Origin: Roseomonas sp.
GTDB lineage: Bacteria > Pseudomonadota > Alphaproteobacteria > Acetobacterales > Acetobacteraceae
Assembly: GCA_020250005.1 (NCBI GenBank)
Contig: JADCES010000101.1
Span: 1 to 60,123 of the forward strand
Length of the DNA: 60,123 nucleotides
Direction: 5' to 3'
A model generated the notes under the pieces. The model had not been told where the DNA came from and ran no database searches. It was given only the letters and a program-made list of their open reading frames with translations. The position numbers and the translations under genes are program-made. Below are positions 3,097 to 49,748 of the stretch, one piece after another (the first letter of the stretch is position 1; the number at the start of each line of letters is the position of its first letter).

Positions 3097-3112
3097 CAAC
3101 CTTGGTTAGATC

Positions 3113-3156
3113 GCATTTTCCGAGTCGCCAAGTGATGCCACTTGGCTTGAAAATGC
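3113..3156 (-). repeat. REP-like double hairpin (GCATTTTC/GCCAAGTG family), copy 1
   Basis: Nested arms GCATTTTC...GAAAATGC and GCCAAGTG...CACTTGGC; same family as 48630-48737 and 54704-54747. Confidence 0.85.
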
Positions 3157-4350: not shown

Positions 4351-5673
4351 CTACCTTGCCGGTACCATTGGGCCGAAGCCACCGGTCTTGCTGATTTTTG
4401 GGCGATTGATGCGCGCTGCCAGCATCGCCGCCGCGATGAACAGCGCCGCATCAAGAATGAAGACCGCCGCATAGGCCGCTTCAACATGGCCCAGCGCAAA
4501 CCGCGCCACATCCACCGCCGCCGCGCCCGCAAGCCCGCCAAGCCCAAAGGCCACCGCCTGCGCCGCGCCCCAAAGCCCCATGCGCGTGCCTTCGCGCGAT
4601 TCATGCCCGCGCGCGACCATTTGCATCATGGAAGCAATGGCGGCCGCTGCGAAAACACCATTCGCGACACCAAGCGCGAAGAAACTGGTCTTGAGCGGCC
4701 AAGCCGCGCCGAATTGCCCGGCGACGGAAAGGGAAAGCATCATTACCGCCGTGGCAAGACAGCCCGTAATGGTCCAGAAGCGGAGCGTGCCTGCCCAGCG
4801 CCCGCCGCGCACACTGCCAATCAGCGCAATGGCAATCATGCCAACCAGCACGCCCGCATGTTGCAGCGATGAAATGCGCGTCGTCTCACCCAGGCTGCGA
4901 TTGAAGACGGCGCCGGCGAAAGGCTCCAGGATCAAATCCTGCGCGCTATAGGCCAACATGGAAACGAAAATGAAAATCGTGAAGCGCCGCGCTTCGGGTT
5001 CCGCCCAAACTTCACGCAAAGCCTGCCGGAAGGGTGGCTTGGCGGCATCGCTCGCTTCCGGGCGCGCGGGGCGCGGGCCTTCCATGCCCCAAACGGCGAG
5101 GGTCGCCAGCGTGAAGGCAATGGCGGAAACGCCGGCGGCGACCGCAATCAGCCGCATGGGCGAATAGGGATCAAGCAGGCGCCCAGCAATCGCCGTGGTG
5201 ATCACAAAGCCCGCGATCATCATGATCCAGACAAGGGATGCCGCAGCAGCGCGCCGTGCTGGTGCGGTGCGTGCCGCGAGCAAGACCAGCAGCGATGTAC
5301 CGGCCGCGCCAACGCCAGCGCCAATCAGCAAAAACGCCAAAACTGCCAGCGCAATGCCGGCCCAAAGCGATTCCGCCATCAGTGCCGTGCCAGCGGCGGC
5401 CAAAACACCGCCAAGCGCCAGTACTGCCATGCCACCAATGATCCAGGGCGTGCGCCGCCCACCCATATCGGACCCATAACCCATGCGCGGGCGCAGCATT
5501 TGCAGCGCATAATGCAGTCCAACCAAAATCCCGGGCAGGGTCGCAGGCAAGGCGAGTTCCACCACCATGACGCGATTGAGGGCAGAGGTTGTCAGCACTA
5601 CAATCGCGCCAAGGGCGGTTTGCACCAAACCCAGACGGATAATACCAAGCCAGCCAAGCGGGGCGGGGTTCAT
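4351..5673 (-). CDS. BCH2/PucC-family MFS protein (orf428-like) between bchG and bchP
   Basis: 'LTTSALNRVMVVELALPATLPGILVGLHYALQMLRPRMGYGSDMGGRRTPWI'. Confidence 0.92.
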   Translation of the reverse strand: MNPAPLGWLGIIRLGLVQTALGAIVVLTTSALNRVMVVELALPATLPGILVGLHYALQMLRPRMGYGSDMGGRRTPWIIGGMAVLALGGVLAAAGTALMAESLWAGIALAVLAFLLIGAGVGAAGTSLLVLLAARTAPARRAAAASLVWIMMIAGFVITTAIAGRLLDPYSPMRLIAVAAGVSAIAFTLATLAVWGMEGPRPARPEASDAAKPPFRQALREVWAEPEARRFTIFIFVSMLAYSAQDLILEPFAGAVFNRSLGETTRISSLQHAGVLVGMIAIALIGSVRGGRWAGTLRFWTITGCLATAVMMLSLSVAGQFGAAWPLKTSFFALGVANGVFAAAAIASMMQMVARGHESREGTRMGLWGAAQAVAFGLGGLAGAAAVDVARFALGHVEAAYAAVFILDAALFIAAAMLAARINRPKISKTGGFGPMVPAR

Positions 5674-6590
5674 GCCGAGCCTCCTGTCAAAGCGGCCAAG
5701 GCAAAGGCGCTGATCAGCATGCCGATCACGTAAAGCAGAACGCCCGTGCCGTTATACCAGGGCGCAAGCGCGCGCGGATCGCGCAGCATGCGCCGCATCA
5801 GACCAAGCTGGATCAGCAGGGAAAGCGCCACCGCCGCCGCATGCCAGGGCACATCCCAGGCAATAAGGAGCGCCACCACAAATACCTGCGGCACCGCCAT
5901 GAAAACGCAGGCTACCAGACCAGCGCGTTCCGCGCCCAATTGTACGGGCAGAGACAACACGCCCATGCGGCGATCACCCTCGATTGCCTTGAAGTCATTC
6001 AGCGTCATGATGCCATGCGCGCCAAGGCCATAAAGCAGCGCCACCAGCAGCACGCGCCAATCTGGCGCCCCGCCAGACATGATCGCTGCCGCTGTGATCC
6101 AGGGCAGGGTTTCATAGGCCAAACCACAGGCCAGATTGCCCCACCAACCATTCGCCTTCAGCCGAAAGGGCGGCGCGCTATAGGCCCAGGCGAGCGCAAT
6201 GGCGATGATGGTGGCACCCATGCCCCAAGTGCCGAGCGGCAGCGCCGCCAATAGCGAAAGCCCAGTCCAGAACAGCGCAATATACAAACCCCAGCGACCA
6301 GGGATGCGTCCTGATGGAATCGGGCGATGCGGTTCATTGATCGCATCCACATGGCGATCATACCAATCATTTGCCGCCTGACTCATCGCGCAAACCAAGG
6401 GGCCGGCCAGCACCACGCCCAGCAATGCCAAGGGCCAATGTTCGGCAAAGCCGCCATGGGCGGAAGCAACACCGCAGCCAAAGGCCCACATGGGTGGGAA
6501 CCATGTGATGGGCTTCAATAATTCCAGAACCGCGGATGGCTTCAGCCGCGGAGTTGGGGCGGTCGCTGCTGTTGCAACGGGGCCCGCCAT
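5670..6590 (-). CDS. bchG: Bacteriochlorophyll synthase
   Basis: 'LKPITWFPPMWAFGCGV', 'NDWYDRHVDAINEPHRPIPSGRIPGRWGLYIA'; start MAGPV after the ppsR stop. Confidence 0.96.
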   Translation of the reverse strand: MAGPVATAATAPTPRLKPSAVLELLKPITWFPPMWAFGCGVASAHGGFAEHWPLALLGVVLAGPLVCAMSQAANDWYDRHVDAINEPHRPIPSGRIPGRWGLYIALFWTGLSLLAALPLGTWGMGATIIAIALAWAYSAPPFRLKANGWWGNLACGLAYETLPWITAAAIMSGGAPDWRVLLVALLYGLGAHGIMTLNDFKAIEGDRRMGVLSLPVQLGAERAGLVACVFMAVPQVFVVALLIAWDVPWHAAAVALSLLIQLGLMRRMLRDPRALAPWYNGTGVLLYVIGMLISAFALAALTGGSA

Positions 6591-6600
6591 CGCGCTGCCC

Positions 6601-8022
6601 CTATCCCTGCTCGCCGCTATCGGCGCCCAGATCACCAAGGCCGTAGCGGTGCAATTTTACATAGAGACTCTGCCGGCTCAGCCCGAGCATTTCCGCCGCC
6701 GAAGCGCGATTATCGCCGGAAAGCTGCAAGGCGGCTTCGATGCACAGGCGCTCAATCGCATCCGTCGCATCGCGCACCAGGTCTTTCAACGGTACGCGCC
6801 CGATCAATTCCGTGAGCTGTTCAACAGAACGCGTGGCATGCGCGCCCGTCTGGCGCGGTTCGGCCACACGCGCGCCGATATCGCGAATCGAAAAACCGAA
6901 AACCTCCTGCCCGCCATGCGTCACGGTGACGGCGGAGATTTCAACCTCAACCCGCGCACCCATCGCGCCGCGCAACGTGGTGGTGTAAAGCCTGACAGTG
7001 CCGCGATTGCGAAGGTTGGAGAGCAGGACTTCAATTTCGATGCCCTGGCCACCAAGCCAACGTTCCAGTGATTCGCCACGCGCCTGTTCTTCCGAACCAA
7101 GCTCCGCCAGATCAAGAAAGGCGCCATTGGCGGAAATCACCAGGCCATTCTGATCCGTCACCACAAAGGCATCAGGCAGGTTTTCCGCCACTTTCAGCAT
7201 TTGCGCCTTGGCGGGCGAAAGCCCGGCCGGCTGTTCGCCACCCGCGAGAGATAGCCGCACCAACAATACCGAAGCACCATCTTGCCGGAAGCTGGTGGCG
7301 GCAATGGTTACGTCGCGGCCGGAATCGGCAAGCTGTGCGCCTACTTCATCACCACGGCCTGCGATACGCACGGAAGCCAGCAGGGATTGCACCGCCTGTC
7401 GGCTTTCTGGCGCGAAGGCATCCATTAAAGGGCGGCCAATGACGCGGCGTGACTGGCGCCCGAAAAGCTGTTCCGCGGCCGGATTGGCTTCGGTCACGCG
7501 CCCGGTTGCGCCATCAATGATCAGGGTTGCATCGGCGGAAAGCTGAAACAACAGGCGATAGCGTGTTTCAGCCTGACGCAGCTTCGCGTAATCGCGTTCC
7601 ATGGATTGCTGGGTTTCCAGCAATCTTTGTTGCAGGCGCGATTGCGCACTCAGGTCACGGCCAAAGACAACGCGCCGATTGCCGCGCTGCAAGGGCACGG
7701 CGGCGAAAAGCAGCGGCACTGCCTCACCACCTTCAGCGACCTGATTGATGTTGCGCCATTTCGACTCGCTGGGTGCGCCGCTCAGCAGCGCTTCAACCTT
7801 GGGGCGGCTTTCCGTGGTGACGGTTTCCGCCCATGGGCGACCAAGCCATGCCTGATGCCCGCCCAGGGTTTTCGAAAGTTCCTGACTGCTGAAGGCAATA
7901 TCGCGAATGACGCCCTGTTCATCCACCACCAGCGCCATATCCGCCGCCGCCGAGACCAATGAGGCCGCGGCATCAGCATCCAAATCTCCGAGCGATTTGC
8001 GGGGGGCCAGAAAGGTTTTCAC
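6601..8022 (-). CDS. ppsR: PAS-domain transcriptional repressor PpsR/CrtJ with C-terminal Fis-type HTH
   Basis: PAS segments plus 'AALQLSGDNRASAAEMLGLSRQSLYVKLHRYGLGD'; PGC context. Confidence 0.95.
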   Translation of the reverse strand: MKTFLAPRKSLGDLDADAAASLVSAAADMALVVDEQGVIRDIAFSSQELSKTLGGHQAWLGRPWAETVTTESRPKVEALLSGAPSESKWRNINQVAEGGEAVPLLFAAVPLQRGNRRVVFGRDLSAQSRLQQRLLETQQSMERDYAKLRQAETRYRLLFQLSADATLIIDGATGRVTEANPAAEQLFGRQSRRVIGRPLMDAFAPESRQAVQSLLASVRIAGRGDEVGAQLADSGRDVTIAATSFRQDGASVLLVRLSLAGGEQPAGLSPAKAQMLKVAENLPDAFVVTDQNGLVISANGAFLDLAELGSEEQARGESLERWLGGQGIEIEVLLSNLRNRGTVRLYTTTLRGAMGARVEVEISAVTVTHGGQEVFGFSIRDIGARVAEPRQTGAHATRSVEQLTELIGRVPLKDLVRDATDAIERLCIEAALQLSGDNRASAAEMLGLSRQSLYVKLHRYGLGDLGADSGEQG

Positions 8023-28065: not shown

Positions 28066-28974
28066 ATGGCCGCTTCCGGAGAATTTCCGATCTGGGAAAA
28101 AGATGGCCGCGATTGGCCCAATCGCGATTCGAGCCAATTTATCGAAGCCGGCGGGCTTCATTGGCATATACAGCGCATGGGGCAGGGGCCTTGCCTGTTG
28201 TTGCTGCATGGTACGGCGGCGGCCACGCATAGTTGGCGCGATTTGGCGCCCATTCTCGCCCCCCATTTCACGCTGATTGCGCCTGATCTGCCGGGGCACG
28301 GCTTCACCTCCAGCCTGCCGCAGGCGCGGGTTTCACTTGCGGGTTTTTCGGAAGCCTTGGATGCATTGCTGAAGAAGCTGCAGCTTTCGCCCGATATGGT
28401 GCTGGGCCATTCGGCAGGTGCGGCAATTGCGCTCCGCATGGCGTTGAATGGTAGCATCGCGCCGCGCGCCATCTTCAGCCTGAATGGCGCCTTGCTGCCC
28501 TTGGGTGATGAGCATGCGGCTTTCTTCACCCGCGCTGCTCGGGTTATGGTGGGGCTGCCCTTTGTCTCCAAGCTTTGCGCCTGGCGTGCCTCAAAGCAGG
28601 AAGTGGCGGCCAAGCTCTTGCGCGATACGGGGTCCGATATCGGGCCGCGCGGCGTGCAATTGTATACGCGGCTCTTTGGTTATCCTGGCCATATTCGCGC
28701 CGCGCTCATGATGATGGCGCAATGGGAATTGCGCCCCTTGCTGCGTGATTTGCCGCGGCTCACGCCATCACTTGTGCTACTGGTGGGTAGCCGGGATCGC
28801 GCCGTGCCACCCATGCAGGCGCGGCGCATCCAGGCCATTCTTCCCTCTGCGCGCATCATCACCCTGGAAGGGCTGGGTCATTTGGCGCATGAGGAAGCGC
28901 CGCAACGTGTCGCGGATACGCTGTTGAAGGAATGGTCCTATCTTGAACAGCATGTGACCGGGGCGGCGGCATGA
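28066..28974 (+). CDS. bchO: Alpha/beta hydrolase, Mg chelatase accessory protein BchO
   Basis: 'LLLLHGTAAATHSWRDLAPILA', 'VLGHSAGAAIALRMAL'; downstream of bchD. Confidence 0.93.
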   Translation: MAASGEFPIWEKDGRDWPNRDSSQFIEAGGLHWHIQRMGQGPCLLLLHGTAAATHSWRDLAPILAPHFTLIAPDLPGHGFTSSLPQARVSLAGFSEALDALLKKLQLSPDMVLGHSAGAAIALRMALNGSIAPRAIFSLNGALLPLGDEHAAFFTRAARVMVGLPFVSKLCAWRASKQEVAAKLLRDTGSDIGPRGVQLYTRLFGYPGHIRAALMMMAQWELRPLLRDLPRLTPSLVLLVGSRDRAVPPMQARRIQAILPSARIITLEGLGHLAHEEAPQRVADTLLKEWSYLEQHVTGAAA

Positions 28975-30269
28975 CCTTCGATACCGTTCTTCCTCCATCC
29001 TATGCAAAACGCATCGAATTGAATGATGAGGTGCATGCGCGCCCGCCCGAAATCCTATTCTCCCCCTGCCGCGTATCGCAACTTGCGCTGCTGCCTGCCG
29101 CTGATGAGGCGCGGGATGCGCCCTGGGCCGCGCTTTGCGCATTGGCGCAGCGTTTTTCAGTGCCGCCCCCCGCGCCGGGCGCCAACCACTATAGCGCTGA
29201 TTTTGGGCCGTTTCGCCTGAAATGGGAAAGGCATGGTGAATTCAGCCGCTTCATGGTGGTGGTCGCTGGCGCCGAGCCCGAGCCTTTTTCGGCAGCGGCG
29301 ATTCACGCCCTTCCGGCGGATTGGCTCAAGGCCCTTCCTGGTCAGGTAATTGCGGCGGCCCATGTAACGTTGCTCGCGTCCAAGGATGTGCCACTTGCCA
29401 TCAGTGAAATCTCGCGGCGGTATTTTCGTGACCATATGTTGGTGGGTGGGCCGCTTGCCGGCGGCCAGGCCCATGCCTTCACGGATTTCCGCATCCAGGC
29501 CGATGGGTTCAGCCGCTTCCTGATTTATGATGGTGGCATGTCACCCTATCAGGCAGGGCGCCTCACGCAGCGCCTGCTTGAGATGGAAACCTATCGCATC
29601 ATGGCGTTATTGGCCTTGCCGATTGCGCAAGAAGTTGCACCGCAAATTGCTGCACAGGAACGCGAATTGGCGGAAATCAGCGCGGCCTTGGTGGAAGCGC
29701 AGGAAGCGGATGAACCGCTGCTGCTGCAACGCCTGACGCGCATGGCCGCCGAGGCGGAAAGCCGCGAATCGCGCCATCGCTTTCGCTTTTCTGCAGCGGC
29801 CGCCTATTATGATCTGGTGCGCAACCGCATTCAGGAATTGCGCGAATTGCGGATGGAAGGCATGCAGACCTTCGGTGAATTCACCGAACGGCGCCTGACG
29901 CCGGCCATGAATACTTGCCAAGCGGTCGCGGCACGGCAGGAAATGCTGTCCCAACGTGTCGCGCGCGCCACGCAGCTGCTTTCAACGCGTGTGGATATTA
30001 CGCGGGAAAGGCAGAACCAAGCCTTGCTTGCTTCCATGGAACGGCGTGCGCGCCAACAGGTCCGGCTGCAACAGGCGGTTGAAGGCTTTTCGGTTGCGGC
30101 CATCACCTATTACGTCGTTGGTTTGGTTGCCTATTTGGCCAAGGGGCTTGCCACATCGGGTGTGACGCTGAGAGAGGAAATCGTGACCAGTGTCGCCATT
30201 CCAATTGTTGCGCTTGGGGTCGCGCTTGGGGTGCGCCGTTTTCGGCGCCGGATGCGCAATCATGATTGA
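28971..30269 (+). CDS. DUF3422-family membrane-anchored protein
   Basis: 'RIELNDEVHARPPEIL', long helical region, C-terminal TM pair; 4-nt overlap with bchO. Confidence 0.85.
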   Translation: MTFDTVLPPSYAKRIELNDEVHARPPEILFSPCRVSQLALLPAADEARDAPWAALCALAQRFSVPPPAPGANHYSADFGPFRLKWERHGEFSRFMVVVAGAEPEPFSAAAIHALPADWLKALPGQVIAAAHVTLLASKDVPLAISEISRRYFRDHMLVGGPLAGGQAHAFTDFRIQADGFSRFLIYDGGMSPYQAGRLTQRLLEMETYRIMALLALPIAQEVAPQIAAQERELAEISAALVEAQEADEPLLLQRLTRMAAEAESRESRHRFRFSAAAAYYDLVRNRIQELRELRMEGMQTFGEFTERRLTPAMNTCQAVAARQEMLSQRVARATQLLSTRVDITRERQNQALLASMERRARQQVRLQQAVEGFSVAAITYYVVGLVAYLAKGLATSGVTLREEIVTSVAIPIVALGVALGVRRFRRRMRNHD

Positions 30270-42201: not shown

Positions 42202-43713
42202 ATGATGAACACAGTTGAAGATAGGCGCCCGCATGCGATTGTGATCGGTTCCGGTTTTGGTGGTTTGGCCGCGGCGGTGCGTTTGGGGGCACGCGGCTGG
42301 CGTGTAACGATTCTTGAAAAGCTCGATGCGCCTGGCGGGCGCGCTTATGTCTTCCGGCAGGATGGTTTCACTTTTGATGCCGGCCCAACCATCATCACCG
42401 CGCCCTATCTGCTGGAAGAGCTTTGGTCACTTGCCGGCCGTAAGCTTGCGCAGGATATTGATCTGCGCGCGATGGACCCTTTCTATCTGATCCGCTTTGA
42501 TGATGGCGAAGTGATGCGCTGTTCCGCTGATCTTGATGTCACGCGTGCTGAGGTCGCGCGAATTGCACCGCAGGACAGCGCCGGCTTTGAACGTTTCATT
42601 CTGGAAAGTGAGCGTATTTTTCGGGTGGCCTTCGCCGAACTGGCCGATAAGCCCTTTCATAGCCTGGCAAGCCTGATCAGTGCCGCGCCGGATTTGATCC
42701 GGCTGAAGGGGTATCGCACCGTCTATAGTCGCGTTTGTGATTACTTCACCAGCGACAAGCTCCGCGTTGCCTTCAGCTTCCACCCGCTGCTGATTGGTGG
42801 GAATCCCATGACCACCACCGCCTATTACTGCCTGATCGCGCATCTTGAACGCCTGCATGGCGTGCATTACGCCATGGGCGGCATGGGTGCGCTGGTGCAG
42901 GGCATTCTTGATCTTGCCACAAGGCTGGGCGGAAGCATTCGCTATAACGCCGAGGTGAAGCGCATCACTACCGAAGGTCGTCGCGCTACAGGCGTTGAAC
43001 TGGCCGATGGTGAAAGGCTTGCAGCCGATATCGTGGTTTCCAACGCCGATGTTGCCTGGACCTACAGCAAGCTTTTGCAGGATTATCCGCGTCGGCGCTG
43101 GACGGATCGCAAGATCGCGCGCGCGCGCTATTCCATGAGTCTTTTCGTCTGGTACTTCGGTACCAAGCGCCGGTATGATGATGTCTATCATCACACCATG
43201 GTGCTTGGCCCACGCTACCAGGAATTGCTGCACGATATTTTCACGCGGAAGCACTTGGCGGAAGATTTCAGCCTTTATCTGCATCGCCCGACAGCAACGG
43301 ATTCGTCGCTGGCTCCGCCGGGCTGCGATTCCTTCTATGTGCTAGCCCCGGTGCCGCATTTGGGCAGCAAGGTGGATTGGGCTAATCATGCAGAGCCCTA
43401 TCGTAAAGCGATCGAAAAGCGCCTTGAGGAAACCGTACTGCCAGGGCTTGGTGAGGCGCTCGTCACATCGCGCATGATCACGCCGCAGGATTTTCAGGAT
43501 CGGCTGCTGTCGGTGAATGGCGCTGCCTTTGCGCTGGAACCGCAGCTTTTCCAAAGCGCCTGGTTCCGCCCCCATAACGTCAGTGAAGAAGTGAAGGGGC
43601 TTTATCTGGTGGGGGCCGGCACACATCCGGGCGCTGGCGTGCCGGGCGTGATTTCATCTGCCAAGGTACTCGATCAGCTTGTGCCGCATGGTGCTTCGCT
43701 CACGTTCAATTAA
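42202..43713 (+). CDS. crtI: Phytoene desaturase CrtI
   Basis: 'AIVIGSGFGGLAAAVRLGARGWRVTILEKLDAPGGRAYVFRQDGFTFDAGPTIITAP', 'GTHPGAGVPGVISSAKV'. Confidence 0.96.
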   Translation: MMNTVEDRRPHAIVIGSGFGGLAAAVRLGARGWRVTILEKLDAPGGRAYVFRQDGFTFDAGPTIITAPYLLEELWSLAGRKLAQDIDLRAMDPFYLIRFDDGEVMRCSADLDVTRAEVARIAPQDSAGFERFILESERIFRVAFAELADKPFHSLASLISAAPDLIRLKGYRTVYSRVCDYFTSDKLRVAFSFHPLLIGGNPMTTTAYYCLIAHLERLHGVHYAMGGMGALVQGILDLATRLGGSIRYNAEVKRITTEGRRATGVELADGERLAADIVVSNADVAWTYSKLLQDYPRRRWTDRKIARARYSMSLFVWYFGTKRRYDDVYHHTMVLGPRYQELLHDIFTRKHLAEDFSLYLHRPTATDSSLAPPGCDSFYVLAPVPHLGSKVDWANHAEPYRKAIEKRLEETVLPGLGEALVTSRMITPQDFQDRLLSVNGAAFALEPQLFQSAWFRPHNVSEEVKGLYLVGAGTHPGAGVPGVISSAKVLDQLVPHGASLTFN

Positions 43714-45239
43714 GCACGCATCGCACCAATTCGAATAGCACCGCGCGTGCCGGCCCAATCTTCCAAAAGCCGCGCCGCAGCGATACGGCCAGACATTGCC
43801 GCCATGGGAATGCCAGGGCCCGGATGCACGGAACCACCTGCAAGATACAAGCCTTGCAGGCGCGTTATCGCACCGGGGCGCGCGAAGGTGCCGGTTGTGC
43901 CATGGCTCGCGCGGCCATAAAGCGCACCACCGGAGCCTGGGAAAAGCCGCGCGAAACCCTCCGGCGTTGTGGCAACCTCAGCGCCCGCATCACGCGCAAT
44001 CTCCAACCCGCACGCCTTGAGCAGGCCAAAGCCGCGTTCACCCAATTCCACGATTTCTGCAGGAGAATAGCTGCGCCGGTCACCATCAGGTGGCGCATTG
44101 ATCAAAACAAGCATCCTTTCCGGCGTGCCCTCGGCCGGTCCTGGCCCGGCTTCGCGATCCTGTGCGCAGATATAGACAGTAGGTGCCGCGGTGATGTCAC
44201 GCCGGCGGAAAATGGCGTCGAATTCTGCCGCGTAATCCTCGGCGAAGAACACATTGTGATGCACCAGTGGAAACCCAGAAGTTGGCGCCTTCACGCACCA
44301 GGTCACGGCCGAAAGGGAACGCGCGGCGCGCGGCGTATCCTCTGCCGCGCTGCGTGGTGCCTGCCCCAATAGGCCTTGCGCCAGCGCGGCCACATCGCCG
44401 TTGAACACCACCGCATCAGCGGTGATTTCCTCACCATTTGCCAAGCGCACACCGCAAACCCTACCGTTGCGGGTGAGTATTTCCGCGACCTCTGCGCCAA
44501 AGCGAAACTTGGCGCCCTTTACTTCGGCCAGACGCTGGATCGCATCCGCCACGCGCCGCATGCCGCCCTTCACAAACCACACGCCATCCTGTTCCACATG
44601 CGCGACCAGCATCAGCGTGGCCGGCGCCAACCAGGGGGAGCATCCGCAATAGGTTGCATACCGCCCGAATAGCTGGCGCAAGCGCGGGTCGCGAAAATGC
44701 TCACCCAAGGCATCCCACAGCGTCTTCATCGGCGCGGTACGAATCAACGCCGCTATATTCGTAATGCCCACGCGCTTGACCAGATCAAGCGGAGATGGCC
44801 GTTCGGCGGCAATGAAGGAACCACGGAGTGTGCGGAAGATATCTGCGCTGCGTGCGCAAAAAGCGCGATAGCCGCGCGCCTCTGCCGCGCCGGCAAATTC
44901 GCCGATGGCATCGGCGGAACGCGCGATATCTGCGAATAAATCTAGCCTGCCGCCGGCGCGCCAGGCATGCCGCGCCAGGATATCTGCTTTCTGCAAGGGC
45001 AAAGCGGCTTCCAGGGAAGCGCCGGCATCCGCAAACAGCCCCTCAAAAATCCAGCGCATGGTGAAGACCGTGGGGCCACCATCAATCGGGCTGCCATCCA
45101 CCAGCACCTCACGCATCTTGCCACCGGGGGCGCTGGCGCGTTCCAAGACCGTCACCACCGCACCACGCCGCGCAAGGTCAGCGGCGGCCGACAAGCCGCC
45201 CATGCCGGCGCCAATCACAACAACGCGTGGGGCCGCCAT
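43710..45239 (-). CDS. crtD: 1-hydroxycarotenoid 3,4-desaturase (methoxyneurosporene dehydrogenase)
   Basis: 'VVVIGAGMGGLSAAADLARRGAVVTVLERASAPGGKMREVLVDGSPIDGGPTVFTMRWIF', 'GSVHPGPGIPMAAMSGRIAA'. Confidence 0.94.
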   Translation of the reverse strand: MAAPRVVVIGAGMGGLSAAADLARRGAVVTVLERASAPGGKMREVLVDGSPIDGGPTVFTMRWIFEGLFADAGASLEAALPLQKADILARHAWRAGGRLDLFADIARSADAIGEFAGAAEARGYRAFCARSADIFRTLRGSFIAAERPSPLDLVKRVGITNIAALIRTAPMKTLWDALGEHFRDPRLRQLFGRYATYCGCSPWLAPATLMLVAHVEQDGVWFVKGGMRRVADAIQRLAEVKGAKFRFGAEVAEILTRNGRVCGVRLANGEEITADAVVFNGDVAALAQGLLGQAPRSAAEDTPRAARSLSAVTWCVKAPTSGFPLVHHNVFFAEDYAAEFDAIFRRRDITAAPTVYICAQDREAGPGPAEGTPERMLVLINAPPDGDRRSYSPAEIVELGERGFGLLKACGLEIARDAGAEVATTPEGFARLFPGSGGALYGRASHGTTGTFARPGAITRLQGLYLAGGSVHPGPGIPMAAMSGRIAAARLLEDWAGTRGAIRIGAMRA

Positions 45240-45240
45240 G

Positions 45241-45984
45241 CTAGGTTGCAGCACTCAAACGTCTGCCGCGCCCGGCGAATTGCCGGTCCACAACGCGGCG
45301 GTGCCAGATGATCAGCGAAACCCCCACCACCAGCGGCACCGCCCACATGAAGGGATTGAGCGCCAATTCAGGGAAAATCCTGACAGAACCGAAAGCCATG
45401 AAGGCGGTGTAGACCGAGATACCCGCGCCCACCAAAGCCTTGATATGTTCCTTGATCCAGGAACCCGGCCCCGGTTCGCGTGCCATCAGAAACCAGAGAT
45501 TCGTGGCCGCAGTCGCCAGCCCTACCATGCAAATGCCAATCATCAGCGGCTGGCCGATCATCCAACCCTGCCAGGCGCAATTCAAGGACGCGGGAATCAG
45601 CGCATATTGCAGAAACAGATTGGTTCTGGTGCGATTCAATTCATGCCGGCGCTTGTTGCGAATGGAAAGCCAGCCATACCAGGCAAGGTTCACCGTCAGC
45701 AGCCCGGTCATCAACATCATCCAGCCAAAAATGCCGCGGATGAAGGCCTCATCAAAGCGGCCTTCCAGATGCGGGTGGGTTTCAATGGGCGCTGCCAGGG
45801 TCAGCAGACTCATCATCATCGCCAGGCAGCCGGTAATCAGCAGCGCGAAGGTGAAGACCTTGCCCCAGCGGGCGTGATTGGCGCCGCCCTTCCGTCCGAT
45901 CACGGGCACCCAGAAAGCAATGGCGCCAATGCTGCCCGTCACGATATGGGCGGCGACCAGCGCATGAAACAGGAAAAGGACCAT
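45241..45984 (-). CDS. Multi-TM protein (247 aa; DUF2306-like by eye) upstream of crtD
   Basis: Several hydrophobic helices; 'AHIVTGSIGAIAFWVPVIGRKGGANHARWGKVFTFALLITGC'. Confidence 0.75.
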   Translation of the reverse strand: MVLFLFHALVAAHIVTGSIGAIAFWVPVIGRKGGANHARWGKVFTFALLITGCLAMMMSLLTLAAPIETHPHLEGRFDEAFIRGIFGWMMLMTGLLTVNLAWYGWLSIRNKRRHELNRTRTNLFLQYALIPASLNCAWQGWMIGQPLMIGICMVGLATAATNLWFLMAREPGPGSWIKEHIKALVGAGISVYTAFMAFGSVRIFPELALNPFMWAVPLVVGVSLIIWHRRVVDRQFAGRGRRLSAAT

Positions 45985-46006: not shown

Positions 46007-46024
46007 TGACAATCGCACTTGACA
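46007..46024. promoter_or_regulatory. PpsR-like box TGACAATCGCACTTGACA
   Basis: TGA-N12-ACA with CAAT..TTGACA core in the divergent 45984/46122 intergenic region. Confidence 0.6.
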
Positions 46025-46121
46025 TATACTAATGTAAAGCATGGAAATCAGCCATGGCAGGTCAAGGATCGCTTCGCCCCTTTGCCCGCCCTTGCCTGGG
46101 CGTAAGGCCGGGTAGGGCGCT

Positions 46122-47507
46122 ATGAATCACATGCCCGCCTTCCGTGCCTTTGCCCCGCCGCGGTCGGAACCTCTGCCCGCGCTGATTGCACTCATGCGCT
46201 GCATGATCAGGGGCGATGGCGATCTGCTCTCGCTTTTGCCGGCCGAGGCTTATCGCATGCCGATTGGCCCGCTTGGCTATTCGCGCCGGTCCACCATTAT
46301 CGTCAATCGCCCCGATCTGGTGCGCGAAGTGCTGACAGATCCCAAGGGCATTCTGCCCAAAAGCGATCTGATGGTGCATGCGCTGGACCCGCTGATTGGC
46401 GATTCGATCTTTGTCTCCTCCGGCGCTACCTGGCGGCGCCAAAGGGCCATGATTGACCCGGCCTTGACGATGATGCGCGTCAACCGTGCCTTTCCCGCCA
46501 TGGAAGCCGGCGCGGCAGCGGCGGAAGCCACACTTACCGATCATGCTGCGCGCGATACGCGCTTTTCACTCGACCTGATGATGAGCCACATGACGGCGGA
46601 CATCATCTGCCGCACCGTGTTTTCCACCGGTCTTGAAACACGTGTCGCGCATGAGGTCTTTGATGCCTTCACGGAATTCGAACATAGCGTGGCGCAGGTG
46701 GAAATCCGCCGGATGATTTTTGATCGCGCCTGGAAGCGTATTCCGCAAAAGGAAAGCGTATTGAATGCCTGCCGCCTCATTCGCGGCTACCTCGGCGAAT
46801 TGCTCGATACGCATCTGGGTGATGGCGCCAGCAGTTTTGATGATATCGCCAGCGCCATCATCGCCGCGCATGATGTGGAAGGCAAAGCCTTCACGCGGGA
46901 GGAGCTGATTGATCAGCTCGGCGTGCTGTTCCTGGCGGGGCATGAGACCAGCGCCAGCGCCTTGACCTGGGTTTTCTATCTGCTCGCGACGCAACCCGCT
47001 TTGGTCGCGCGGTTGCGGGCCGAGGTTGATGAAATTGTCGGTCCAGGCCCCATCCTGTTCGAACATACGCGTAAACTTCCATTCATTCGCAATGTGTTTC
47101 GTGAAACGCTGCGGCTTTATCCGCCGATCACTTTCCTGCCGCGCGTGGCCAATGAGGCAACACGCATCGGCGATTACCCGGTGAAAAAGGGCGCGCTGAT
47201 CATGGTGGCACCCTGGGTGCTGCATCGGCATCACGCCTATTGGCGTGATCCGCATCTATTCGACCCTGATCGCTTCCTGCCCGAACGCGAAGCAGAAATG
47301 ACTGCTGGCGCCTATATCCCCTTTGGCATTGGCCCGCGGGTTTGTGCGGGTGCGGCGTTTGCGCAGGTGGAAGCGGTGCTGCTGATCGCGCGGCTGTTTC
47401 GCCAATTTGATTTCCACATCGAAGCGCCTGGTGATGTGCGCCCCGCCGCGCGGCTCACCACGCGCCCGGCGCGGCAGGTGATGTGTCGCGTCACCCGCGT
47501 TGCATGA
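46122..47507 (+). CDS. Cytochrome P450
   Basis: I-helix 'LAGHETSASALT', ExxR 'FRETLRLYPP', 'FDPDRFLPERE', haem loop 'FGIGPRVCAGAAFA'. Confidence 0.97.
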   Translation: MNHMPAFRAFAPPRSEPLPALIALMRCMIRGDGDLLSLLPAEAYRMPIGPLGYSRRSTIIVNRPDLVREVLTDPKGILPKSDLMVHALDPLIGDSIFVSSGATWRRQRAMIDPALTMMRVNRAFPAMEAGAAAAEATLTDHAARDTRFSLDLMMSHMTADIICRTVFSTGLETRVAHEVFDAFTEFEHSVAQVEIRRMIFDRAWKRIPQKESVLNACRLIRGYLGELLDTHLGDGASSFDDIASAIIAAHDVEGKAFTREELIDQLGVLFLAGHETSASALTWVFYLLATQPALVARLRAEVDEIVGPGPILFEHTRKLPFIRNVFRETLRLYPPITFLPRVANEATRIGDYPVKKGALIMVAPWVLHRHHAYWRDPHLFDPDRFLPEREAEMTAGAYIPFGIGPRVCAGAAFAQVEAVLLIARLFRQFDFHIEAPGDVRPAARLTTRPARQVMCRVTRVA

Positions 47508-48628
47508 CAGGCAATCTGCTGCTGACCCTTGGCCGCCTGCCCAAGGCGCTGGATGTGGCGCGCGGCTTTGCCGATCTTGGTTGGCGTGTGGTGGTGGCGG
47601 AGCCTTTCAAGCGCCATCTGGCGGGCGCTTCCCGCGCCGTGGCGCAAAGCCATCGCGTGACGGCACCGGCGGAAGACAAGCAGGCCTATTTGGCTGACCT
47701 GAGGCGCATCATCGCGGATGAGAAGATTGATCTTGTCCTGCCGGTTTCGGAAGAAACCATGCATGTCGCCTTCCTGCGTGAAAGCCTTCCCACCACCACG
47801 CGGCTTTTCACCATGCCGCCTGAAATCCTGCTTCGTCTGCACAGTAAGCATGGCTTCGCGCAGCAGGCCGCCGCTTGGGGCCTTGCGGTGCCGGAAACCT
47901 ATGCGCTGGGCGATCCGGCGGCCGAGGCTTTGGCGCAATCTGGCCCGGTGGTGATCAAGCCAGTGCATTCCTGTTCCGGTCGCGGCGTGCGGCTTCTGCC
48001 TGCTGGCGCTGCCCTACCCGCGCCGGAGCCCACCATTCCCGCCATTGTGCAGCGCTGCGTGATCGGCGCGGAATATAGTTCCTGCTCCATCGCGCATGAT
48101 GGTCGCGTCGCCTCCACCGTCATCTATCGCGCGGCGCAGAAATCAGGCTCGGTCGCGGTGGCGTTTGAACGGGTGGAACATCCAGCGATTGCCGATTGGA
48201 TCACGCGCTTCATCGCCGCGGCAAATTGGACCGGCTTTATCGCCTTCGACATCATGGTGGATGAAACCGGCCAGCCCTGGGGCATTGAATGCAATCCGCG
48301 TACGACAAGCGGCCTGCATTTCTGGCAACGCGCCGATATCGCGCGCGCCGTACTGGAACCGGGTTTCATCCCGCGCTACCGGCCTGAGGCACGCTTGCAG
48401 CAATTCTATTCGGCGTTGACAGAAACACAGATGTCGCTATTCCGGCGTGGCCCGTTTCGCGAGAATGTGCGCCAACTTTTCTCGACACGCGATGTCAGCT
48501 GGGACAGGCGGGACCCCATGCCGTTCCTCACCATGACTGCGACTTCATGGCCCATCATCCGCACGGCCATGGCGCGCGGTGCGACCTTTGGTGAGGTCGC
48601 AACGCTTGATGTTGGTTGGTATGATTAG
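47504..48628 (+). CDS. ATP-grasp domain ligase-like protein
   Basis: 'VVIKPVHSCSGRGVRLLP', 'TGFIAFDIMVDETGQPWGIECNPRTTSGLH'; ATGA overlap with the P450. Confidence 0.88.
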   Translation: MTGNLLLTLGRLPKALDVARGFADLGWRVVVAEPFKRHLAGASRAVAQSHRVTAPAEDKQAYLADLRRIIADEKIDLVLPVSEETMHVAFLRESLPTTTRLFTMPPEILLRLHSKHGFAQQAAAWGLAVPETYALGDPAAEALAQSGPVVIKPVHSCSGRGVRLLPAGAALPAPEPTIPAIVQRCVIGAEYSSCSIAHDGRVASTVIYRAAQKSGSVAVAFERVEHPAIADWITRFIAAANWTGFIAFDIMVDETGQPWGIECNPRTTSGLHFWQRADIARAVLEPGFIPRYRPEARLQQFYSALTETQMSLFRRGPFRENVRQLFSTRDVSWDRRDPMPFLTMTATSWPIIRTAMARGATFGEVATLDVGWYD

Positions 48629-48629
48629 A

Positions 48630-48737
48630 GCATTTTCAAGCCAAGTGTCTTCACTTGGCGGCTCGGAAAATGCGATCAAACAAGCATTTTCAAGCCAAGT
48701 GTCTTCACTTGGCGGCTCGGAAAATGCGATCAAACAA
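48630..48737 (+). repeat. REP-like double hairpin, two perfect 54-bp tandem copies (48630-48683, 48684-48737)
   Basis: GCATTTTCAAGCCAAGTGTCTTCACTTGGCGGCTCGGAAAATGCGATCAAACAA x2. Confidence 0.95.
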
Positions 48738-48742
48738 ACACT

Positions 48743-49693
48743 CTAGCTGCGAGCGCGGGGCACCCTGAAGGGCAGCATCAACGCCTGCACCGCCAGATTA
48801 TCAAAACGGTTCAAGGCCAGGCTTTCATGCACCGCAATGGCATTCTGCCCCAGTAGCCGCGTGCGAATTTCGGAGCGCGTATAAAAGGGGGCATCCACCA
48901 GCGCGCGCACCAGCTCTGCCTTGCCATCCTCAGACCGTGTCGGGCGCGCCACACGCCAAAGCCCGGGCGGCATCATGGCTGGCGCGGGGATAGGCATATC
49001 GGCAACTTCCCCCGCGCGGTTCACATGCAGCGCCAGGGATTGCGCTGTTCCATCGCGCCGCAAGGCATTATACAAAATCGCAGTCGCTTCCGGCATCGGC
49101 GCGCGGCACCAATCCCAGAACAGGAAATCCTCTTCCAGCGGTGCGATACCTGTATTGGTGTCAAAATACGAAAAGCCGGACCAGCGCAGCGCAGGATTGT
49201 CGAAAGCAACTTCCACGCGCGAACGCGGCGCGATTGGCTGCCAATGATGCCGCCCCGCGCCATCCAAGCGGAACGCCCGATGCGACAGCGCTTCGGGATA
49301 AAGCGTCACACGCCCGCGCAACTTGCCAGGAACAGGGGCGGTTACCTCGGCAAGATCAACCACCAGCTTATTGCCATCCCAGCGCATGGCACTCGGCCCG
49401 ATTTGCAGAAAATCCGCCCCGCGCCTGAGGGCGCCCCGCGGGCGATCCGTCATCGCCCAGCGCGCTGGCTTGCCGTAAAGCGCCACATGCATGCAGCAAT
49501 GGTTCAGCGGATCGCCGCCGCCACCGCGCCGCGCAAAGGCATACCAGGGGGAGAATACCGTGCCCAGAAAGGCGATGATGGTAATGCCATGCGCGCCATC
49601 ATCGGAAAGCGCATCCAGATACCACCAGCGATAACCGCGATTTGCCACGGGCAGGGTGAAATCCAACCCGGTAGCGTTCAAATCTTCATTCAT
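48743..49693 (-). CDS. crtC: Carotenoid 1,2-hydratase (hydroxyneurosporene synthase)
   Basis: 'GYRWWYLDALSDDGAHGITIIAFLGTVFSPWYAFARRGGGGDPLNHCCMHVALYG'. Confidence 0.96.
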   Translation of the reverse strand: MNEDLNATGLDFTLPVANRGYRWWYLDALSDDGAHGITIIAFLGTVFSPWYAFARRGGGGDPLNHCCMHVALYGKPARWAMTDRPRGALRRGADFLQIGPSAMRWDGNKLVVDLAEVTAPVPGKLRGRVTLYPEALSHRAFRLDGAGRHHWQPIAPRSRVEVAFDNPALRWSGFSYFDTNTGIAPLEEDFLFWDWCRAPMPEATAILYNALRRDGTAQSLALHVNRAGEVADMPIPAPAMMPPGLWRVARPTRSEDGKAELVRALVDAPFYTRSEIRTRLLGQNAIAVHESLALNRFDNLAVQALMLPFRVPRARS

Positions 49694-49748
49694 CGTAAAA
49701 GCCGCCATGTCACGCGGCCATTTCCGCCCGCATCGCCTTGCGGGTCAA

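Follow-up and report, generated by a model that had tools for sequence, protein, structure and literature searches.

Which function can be attributed to a cytochrome P450 gene and an ATP-grasp ligase gene that are situated among the carotenoid genes of a photosynthesis gene cluster? This question is raised by the DNA analysed in the current work (hereafter the window, being the whole 60,123 nt stretch of Roseomonas sp. contig JADCES010000101.1), which constitutes the photosynthesis gene cluster of a Roseomonas-type bacterium and contains bch, puh, puf and crt genes as well as acsF and ppsR. The presence of crtB, crtE, crtF, crtI, crtD and crtC defines a spirilloxanthin-series setting, in which crtD scores above its cut-off, crtI above its family cut-off, and crtB, crtE and crtC below their equivalog cut-offs, while crtF was called from O-methyltransferase domains and position.

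Organization of the locus

The interval between crtD and crtC holds three genes, i.e. a membrane protein gene on the reverse strand followed by the divergently oriented P450 and ATP-grasp genes (Table 1). A preliminary description of this DNA had recognized a two-gene module lying between crtD/crtI and crtC. The interval is right and the P450/ATP-grasp pair is real, but crtD is not its direct neighbour, as the membrane protein gene intervenes, and this third member had been overlooked. The 4-nt ATGA overlap that had been described for the pair is exact (47504-47507, spanning the stop codon of the P450 and the start codon of the ATP-grasp gene). Of 50 homologous loci, 46 retain an overlap of the two frames and the other four have gaps of 4-28 nt.

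Table 1 Positions of the module genes and of associated features in the window
Feature	Position	Strand	Details
ppsR	6601-8022		
crtI-family phytoene desaturase	42202-43713	+	TIGR02734, 623 bits
crtD, 1-hydroxycarotenoid 3,4-desaturase	43710-45254	-	NF045637, 696 bits (cut-off 580)
Membrane protein	45241-45984	-	247 aa, seven long predicted helices; divergent from P450
Divergent promoter element	46007-46038		TGACAAT-N5-TTGACA-N8-TGTAAA; conserved; overlapping -35-like hexamers
Cytochrome P450	46122-47507	+	461 aa; Pfam PF00067, 3.6e-75; haem/oxygen-binding motifs intact
ATP-grasp ligase	47504-48628	+	374 aa, ATG at 47504; alternative in-frame GTG start at 47483
crtC-like carotenoid 1,2-hydratase	48743-49708	-	NF045922, 294 bits (below cut-off of 400)

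Conservation and distribution of the module

Whole-genome and contig searches yielded 55 ATP-grasp-bearing pieces of DNA, several of which represent the same genomes in two collections and are therefore not all independent. The order crtI/crtD/membrane gene/P450/ATP-grasp recurs in the homologous loci with the occasional loss of one crt neighbour, and is kept over four Acetobacterales genera; a further instance of it, at 50-58% identity, comes from L119, a photosynthesis cluster belonging to a different alphaproteobacterial family. Cultured carriers include Falsiroseomonas tokyonensis K-20 and Paeniroseomonas aquatica CECT 7131. Flanks of 3 kb or more in both directions are available for 37 ATP-grasp-bearing pieces; all 37 loci carry the P450 gene, the membrane gene and at least one crt gene within 3 kb. 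The orthologues thus do not lie mostly outside pigment clusters, which the preliminary description had named as a refuting outcome. In four of these 37 loci (L039, L042, L069 and L076), crt genes adjoin the module while the piece shows neither bch nor puf genes, a pattern indicative of carotenoid rather than of bacteriochlorophyll. A separate observation concerns L069, a metagenome-assembled genome labelled Sphingomonadales, in which a lycopene beta-cyclase gene, crtY (4986-6182), adjoins the module and provides a hint of cyclic carotenoids as well.

In a sample of 200 Acetobacterales genomes, 43 of which possess reaction-centre genes above cut-off, an ATP-grasp orthologue was detected in 23 of these 43 and in 0 of the 157 others. 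Orthologues of the P450 and of the membrane protein are each present in 24 of the 200 genomes, including both in all 23 ATP-grasp carriers; the 24th genome (G179) also possesses reaction-centre genes, and of the three module genes it lacks only that for the ATP-grasp protein; none of the three genes occurs in the 157 genomes without reaction-centre genes. The association between the module and phototrophy is therefore strong across the sampled order, with counts that do not represent independent events because the 23 carriers are clustered in four genera. For all three genes, the dN/dS values obtained versus close relatives (0.02-0.08) indicate purifying selection, and no close homologue was found in the plasmid collection. 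That the module is real, conserved and tied to carotenoid genes is well supported, and the earlier view of the pair as a unit in the carotenoid arm, as opposed to a chance insertion, is sustained by the 37 loci and by the distribution of 23 of 43 versus 0 of 157 genomes.

The cytochrome P450 and its clade

The P450 had been described as carrying a full set of motifs, and both its coordinates and its motifs proved accurate: the protein scores above the gathering score of PF00067 and possesses the I-helix AGxxT, the ExxR and the haem-Cys loop of the cytochrome P450 superfamily, its AGHET, ExxR (ETLR) and FGxGxRxCxG motifs being retained in 20 diverse homologues. A membrane anchor is not apparent, and no ferredoxin or reductase is encoded within the module. 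The best PDB sequence match is CYP97A3; this match is unspecific, as the unlinked alphaproteobacterial P450s L170 and L002 score similarly, and the window P450 shows no specific relation to CYP97 over other P450s. Kinship with CYP97 was consequently rejected as evidence for a carotenoid substrate, because two control P450s located outside carotenoid clusters have the same best match.

The carotenoid hydroxylases CYP97A3/LUT5, of plants, and CYP175A1 are comparable as P450s that act on carotenoids; their substrates, however, are cyclic. CrtA, the spheroidene monooxygenase with which purple bacteria oxidise acyclic carotenoids in an oxygen-dependent reaction, offers a parallel with respect to substrate type, and two members of the window P450 clade adjoin crtA, whereas the protein itself belongs to a family other than PF00067.

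In a tree of 25 P450s, whose rooting is based on only seven outside P450s, a branch with 100/100 support groups all carotenoid-linked P450s together. The outermost members of this clade are crtA-linked and lack the membrane and ATP-grasp genes, the next ones are accompanied by the membrane gene only, and the most nested subclade (100/97) is the only one with an ATP-grasp gene. In L168 and L169, the same-clade P450 follows crtA (CrtA scores of 295 and 308 bits, respectively, for a cut-off of 300), and inspection of the genomes of the crtA-linked members established that the ATP-grasp and membrane genes are both absent. The start of the L146 P450 gene overlaps with the stop of crtC, and this locus has no ATP-grasp gene. 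This branching order suggests that the P450 was acquired first, followed by the membrane protein and lastly by the ligase. As the P450 occurs without the ATP-grasp protein, either adjoining crtA or with the membrane protein only, oxidation by the P450 would be independent of the ligase.

The ATP-grasp protein

The predicted model of the ATP-grasp protein (pLDDT 93) retrieved 521 PDB matches at E<=0.001, the top ones being ATP-grasp enzymes, and this fold, together with conserved motifs (of which the ECNPR motif and lysines K115 and K152 are invariant), places the protein in the ATP-grasp superfamily, in agreement with its score against Pfam PF02655 (26.8 bits, cut-off 23.2). An L-amino acid ligase is its best fold match; PylC also ranks high, and the TM-scores, PurK-type enzymes included, are 0.55-0.62. 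In predicted fold and conserved motifs the protein thus resembles the carboxylate-amine ligases BL00235 (L-amino acid ligase), PylC and PRK06849; it differs from these in that the TM-scores reach only the values given, in that its score against NCBIfam PRK06849 (NF005315; 249.6 bits) is below the cut-off of 406 and leaves it outside that family, and in that no carotenoid role is known for them. PurK and biotin carboxylase are close fold matches too, and the fact that ATP-grasp folds also catalyse other chemistry counts against the function proposed below.

The window family has a conserved C-terminal region that is absent from distant relatives. Outside the module setting, such relatives adjoin Rieske oxygenases (L117 and L120), which again represents the pairing of an oxygenase with an ATP-grasp protein. 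A similar-looking operon with a PRK06849-like ATP-grasp gene was observed in two unrelated genomes (L120, 3990-10263; L121, 3981-9224); it contains a FabH-like gene and a metallo-beta-lactamase-fold gene, joined in L120 by the Rieske oxygenase gene, and is a possible small-molecule cluster.

The membrane protein

The model of the third member (pLDDT 89.5) consists of seven long helices, for which no fold match among the solved structures of the PDB was obtained at E<=0.001. The window protein scores 8.5 bits against DUF2306 (PF10067), for which the gathering score is 31.6, and weak matches to this family are found in 21 of 24 homologues (best 3.5e-5); the protein may thus be described as distantly DUF2306-like. 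Its distant relatives are encoded in non-photosynthetic surroundings, and one 42% relative is positioned directly after pufC in L187 (8758-9504), a phototroph from a different family, without an adjoining P450.

The divergent promoter

The PpsR-like box previously noted upstream of the P450 is present and conserved in homologous loci, but it deviates by one base from the consensus: TGACAATCGCACTTGACA (46007-46024) contains TGA instead of TGT (A for T at position 3) of TGT-N12-ACA. Other parts of the window contain exact boxes to which it is similar, for example TGTCAATTTAACTTGACA, which lies upstream of bchC. Of 19 divergent promoters, 14 contain the pattern TGW-N12-ACA, for which shuffled sequences gave a mean of 0.5 and a maximum of 3; 16 contain TTGACA-N(7-9)-TGT(A/C)AA with one mismatch allowed, for which the shuffles gave a mean of 0.02 and a maximum of 1. 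The shuffles overstate the independence of these counts because the 19 loci are related. The bases of the box could alternatively constitute overlapping divergent -35 elements. The promoter is thus conserved, but its box departs from the consensus, and PpsR control of the module may be regarded as plausible.

Proposed function and alternative explanations

The module may represent a carotenoid end-group tailoring system by which aerobic phototrophs have extended their spirilloxanthin-type pathway. The P450 would hydroxylate an acyclic C40 carotenoid supplied by CrtI/CrtC/CrtD and may further oxidise an end methyl or chain carbon to a carboxylic acid, following which the ATP-grasp enzyme, presumably made by translational coupling with the P450, would activate the carboxylate as an acyl-phosphate and join it to an amine (an amino acid or similar). 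The membrane protein, which accompanies the ATP-grasp protein in every case, probably retains the lipophilic substrate or makes it accessible, or may serve in electron transfer or export. An acid-forming P450 succeeded by a capping ATP-grasp ligase would be the simplest reading of the module, and we give an even chance to the proposition that an acyclic carotenoid is oxidised by the P450, which may take it as far as an acid, and that the ATP-grasp enzyme couples this acid to an amine. Carotenoid oxidation and ligation had been proposed in the preliminary description: the linkage to carotenoid genes was borne out, while oxidation and ATP-dependent ligation, just as the carotenoid substrate, the formation of acid and amide, the redox partner and the role of the membrane protein, are elements that we infer.

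A terminal carboxyl group on a linear C40 carotenoid has a precedent in gemmatoxanthin (a -16-oic acid) of the phototroph Gemmatimonas phototrophica, whose photosynthesis cluster is of proteobacterial origin, and such a carotenoid can serve in a photosynthetic complex (PMC8342508). The gene responsible for this oxidation is unidentified, CruH-like proteins having been proposed; in contrast to the module, no P450 is named and no conjugate is reported there (PMC8342508).

An alternative is that the P450 acts like CrtA, its reaction on an acyclic carotenoid being confined to hydroxylation or ketolation without formation of an acid, with the ATP-grasp protein performing another ATP-dependent step in the same pigment pathway. 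The crtA-linked outermost members of the P450 clade, in genomes without ATP-grasp and membrane genes, imply that the ancestral job of the P450 needed no ligase; however, the prevalent overlap of the two frames (46 of 50 loci), and the fact that among close homologues the ATP-grasp gene was never found without the P450 gene, suggest sequential steps, and we regard this alternative as somewhat unlikely. It is unlikely that the module converts a different isoprenoid or an acyl precursor into a light-regulated small molecule other than a pigment and that it has no more than its regulation in common with the carotenoid genes: this would be in line with distant ATP-grasp relatives, recognized by the same NCBIfam model, which outside carotenoid loci adjoin genes for Rieske oxygenases and FabH-like proteins, but the module tracks crt genes even without nearby bch or puf genes, and related P450s adjoin crtA or overlap crtC.

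Modification of bacteriochlorophyll or its isoprenoid tail by the P450 or the ligase would agree with the confinement of the module to phototrophs in the sampled order and with the P450 of L167, which adjoins bchI; yet it is crt genes that adjoin the module throughout, the pieces of four carrier loci show neither bch nor puf, and this explanation appears highly improbable. That the genes are chance neighbours without joint function is scarcely credible in view of the order conserved in 37 loci, the low dN/dS and the shared presence and absence, and no support for it was found in the data on locus conservation, dN/dS or presence/absence.

The module is a variant of known oxygenase-plus-ligase tailoring, and an ATP-grasp ligase in carotenoid biosynthesis would, to our knowledge, be the first such use. 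A literature search retrieved neither a published account of the module, or of P450/ATP-grasp genes in photosynthesis clusters, nor a carotenoid amide from these bacteria. With an acid-forming P450 and a capping ligase, the module predicts a new pigment structure in aerobic phototrophs, a group that includes Roseomonas from Microcystis colonies, and supplies candidate genes for linear carotenoid oxidation, which is an open question for gemmatoxanthin. The broader proposal that phototrophic Roseomonadaceae make an undescribed carotenoid class, i.e. an acyclic C40 acid formed by the P450 and amide-capped by the ATP-grasp enzyme with the aid of a membrane partner without a known fold, is a tentative one that we would sooner doubt than accept.

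Additional features of the cluster

Besides the module-linked crtD, a second, divergent crtD adjoins crtC in L045, L046, L047, L048, L049 and L050. A module-specific second crtD was considered and rejected, as it is the module-linked gene that scores above the CrtD cut-off, the divergent copy being the one next to crtC. A gene encoding a DUF3422 protein is located within the photosynthesis cluster of the window (28971-30269) and also in those of relatives (L071, L074 and L119). Between the ATP-grasp gene and crtC, the window contains a perfect 54-bp tandem duplication with a hairpin (48629-48736), the 37-bp core of which is present in 14 genome copies (<=3 mismatches), some of them paired, in a REP-like manner, with a further copy in the window at 3112-3148.
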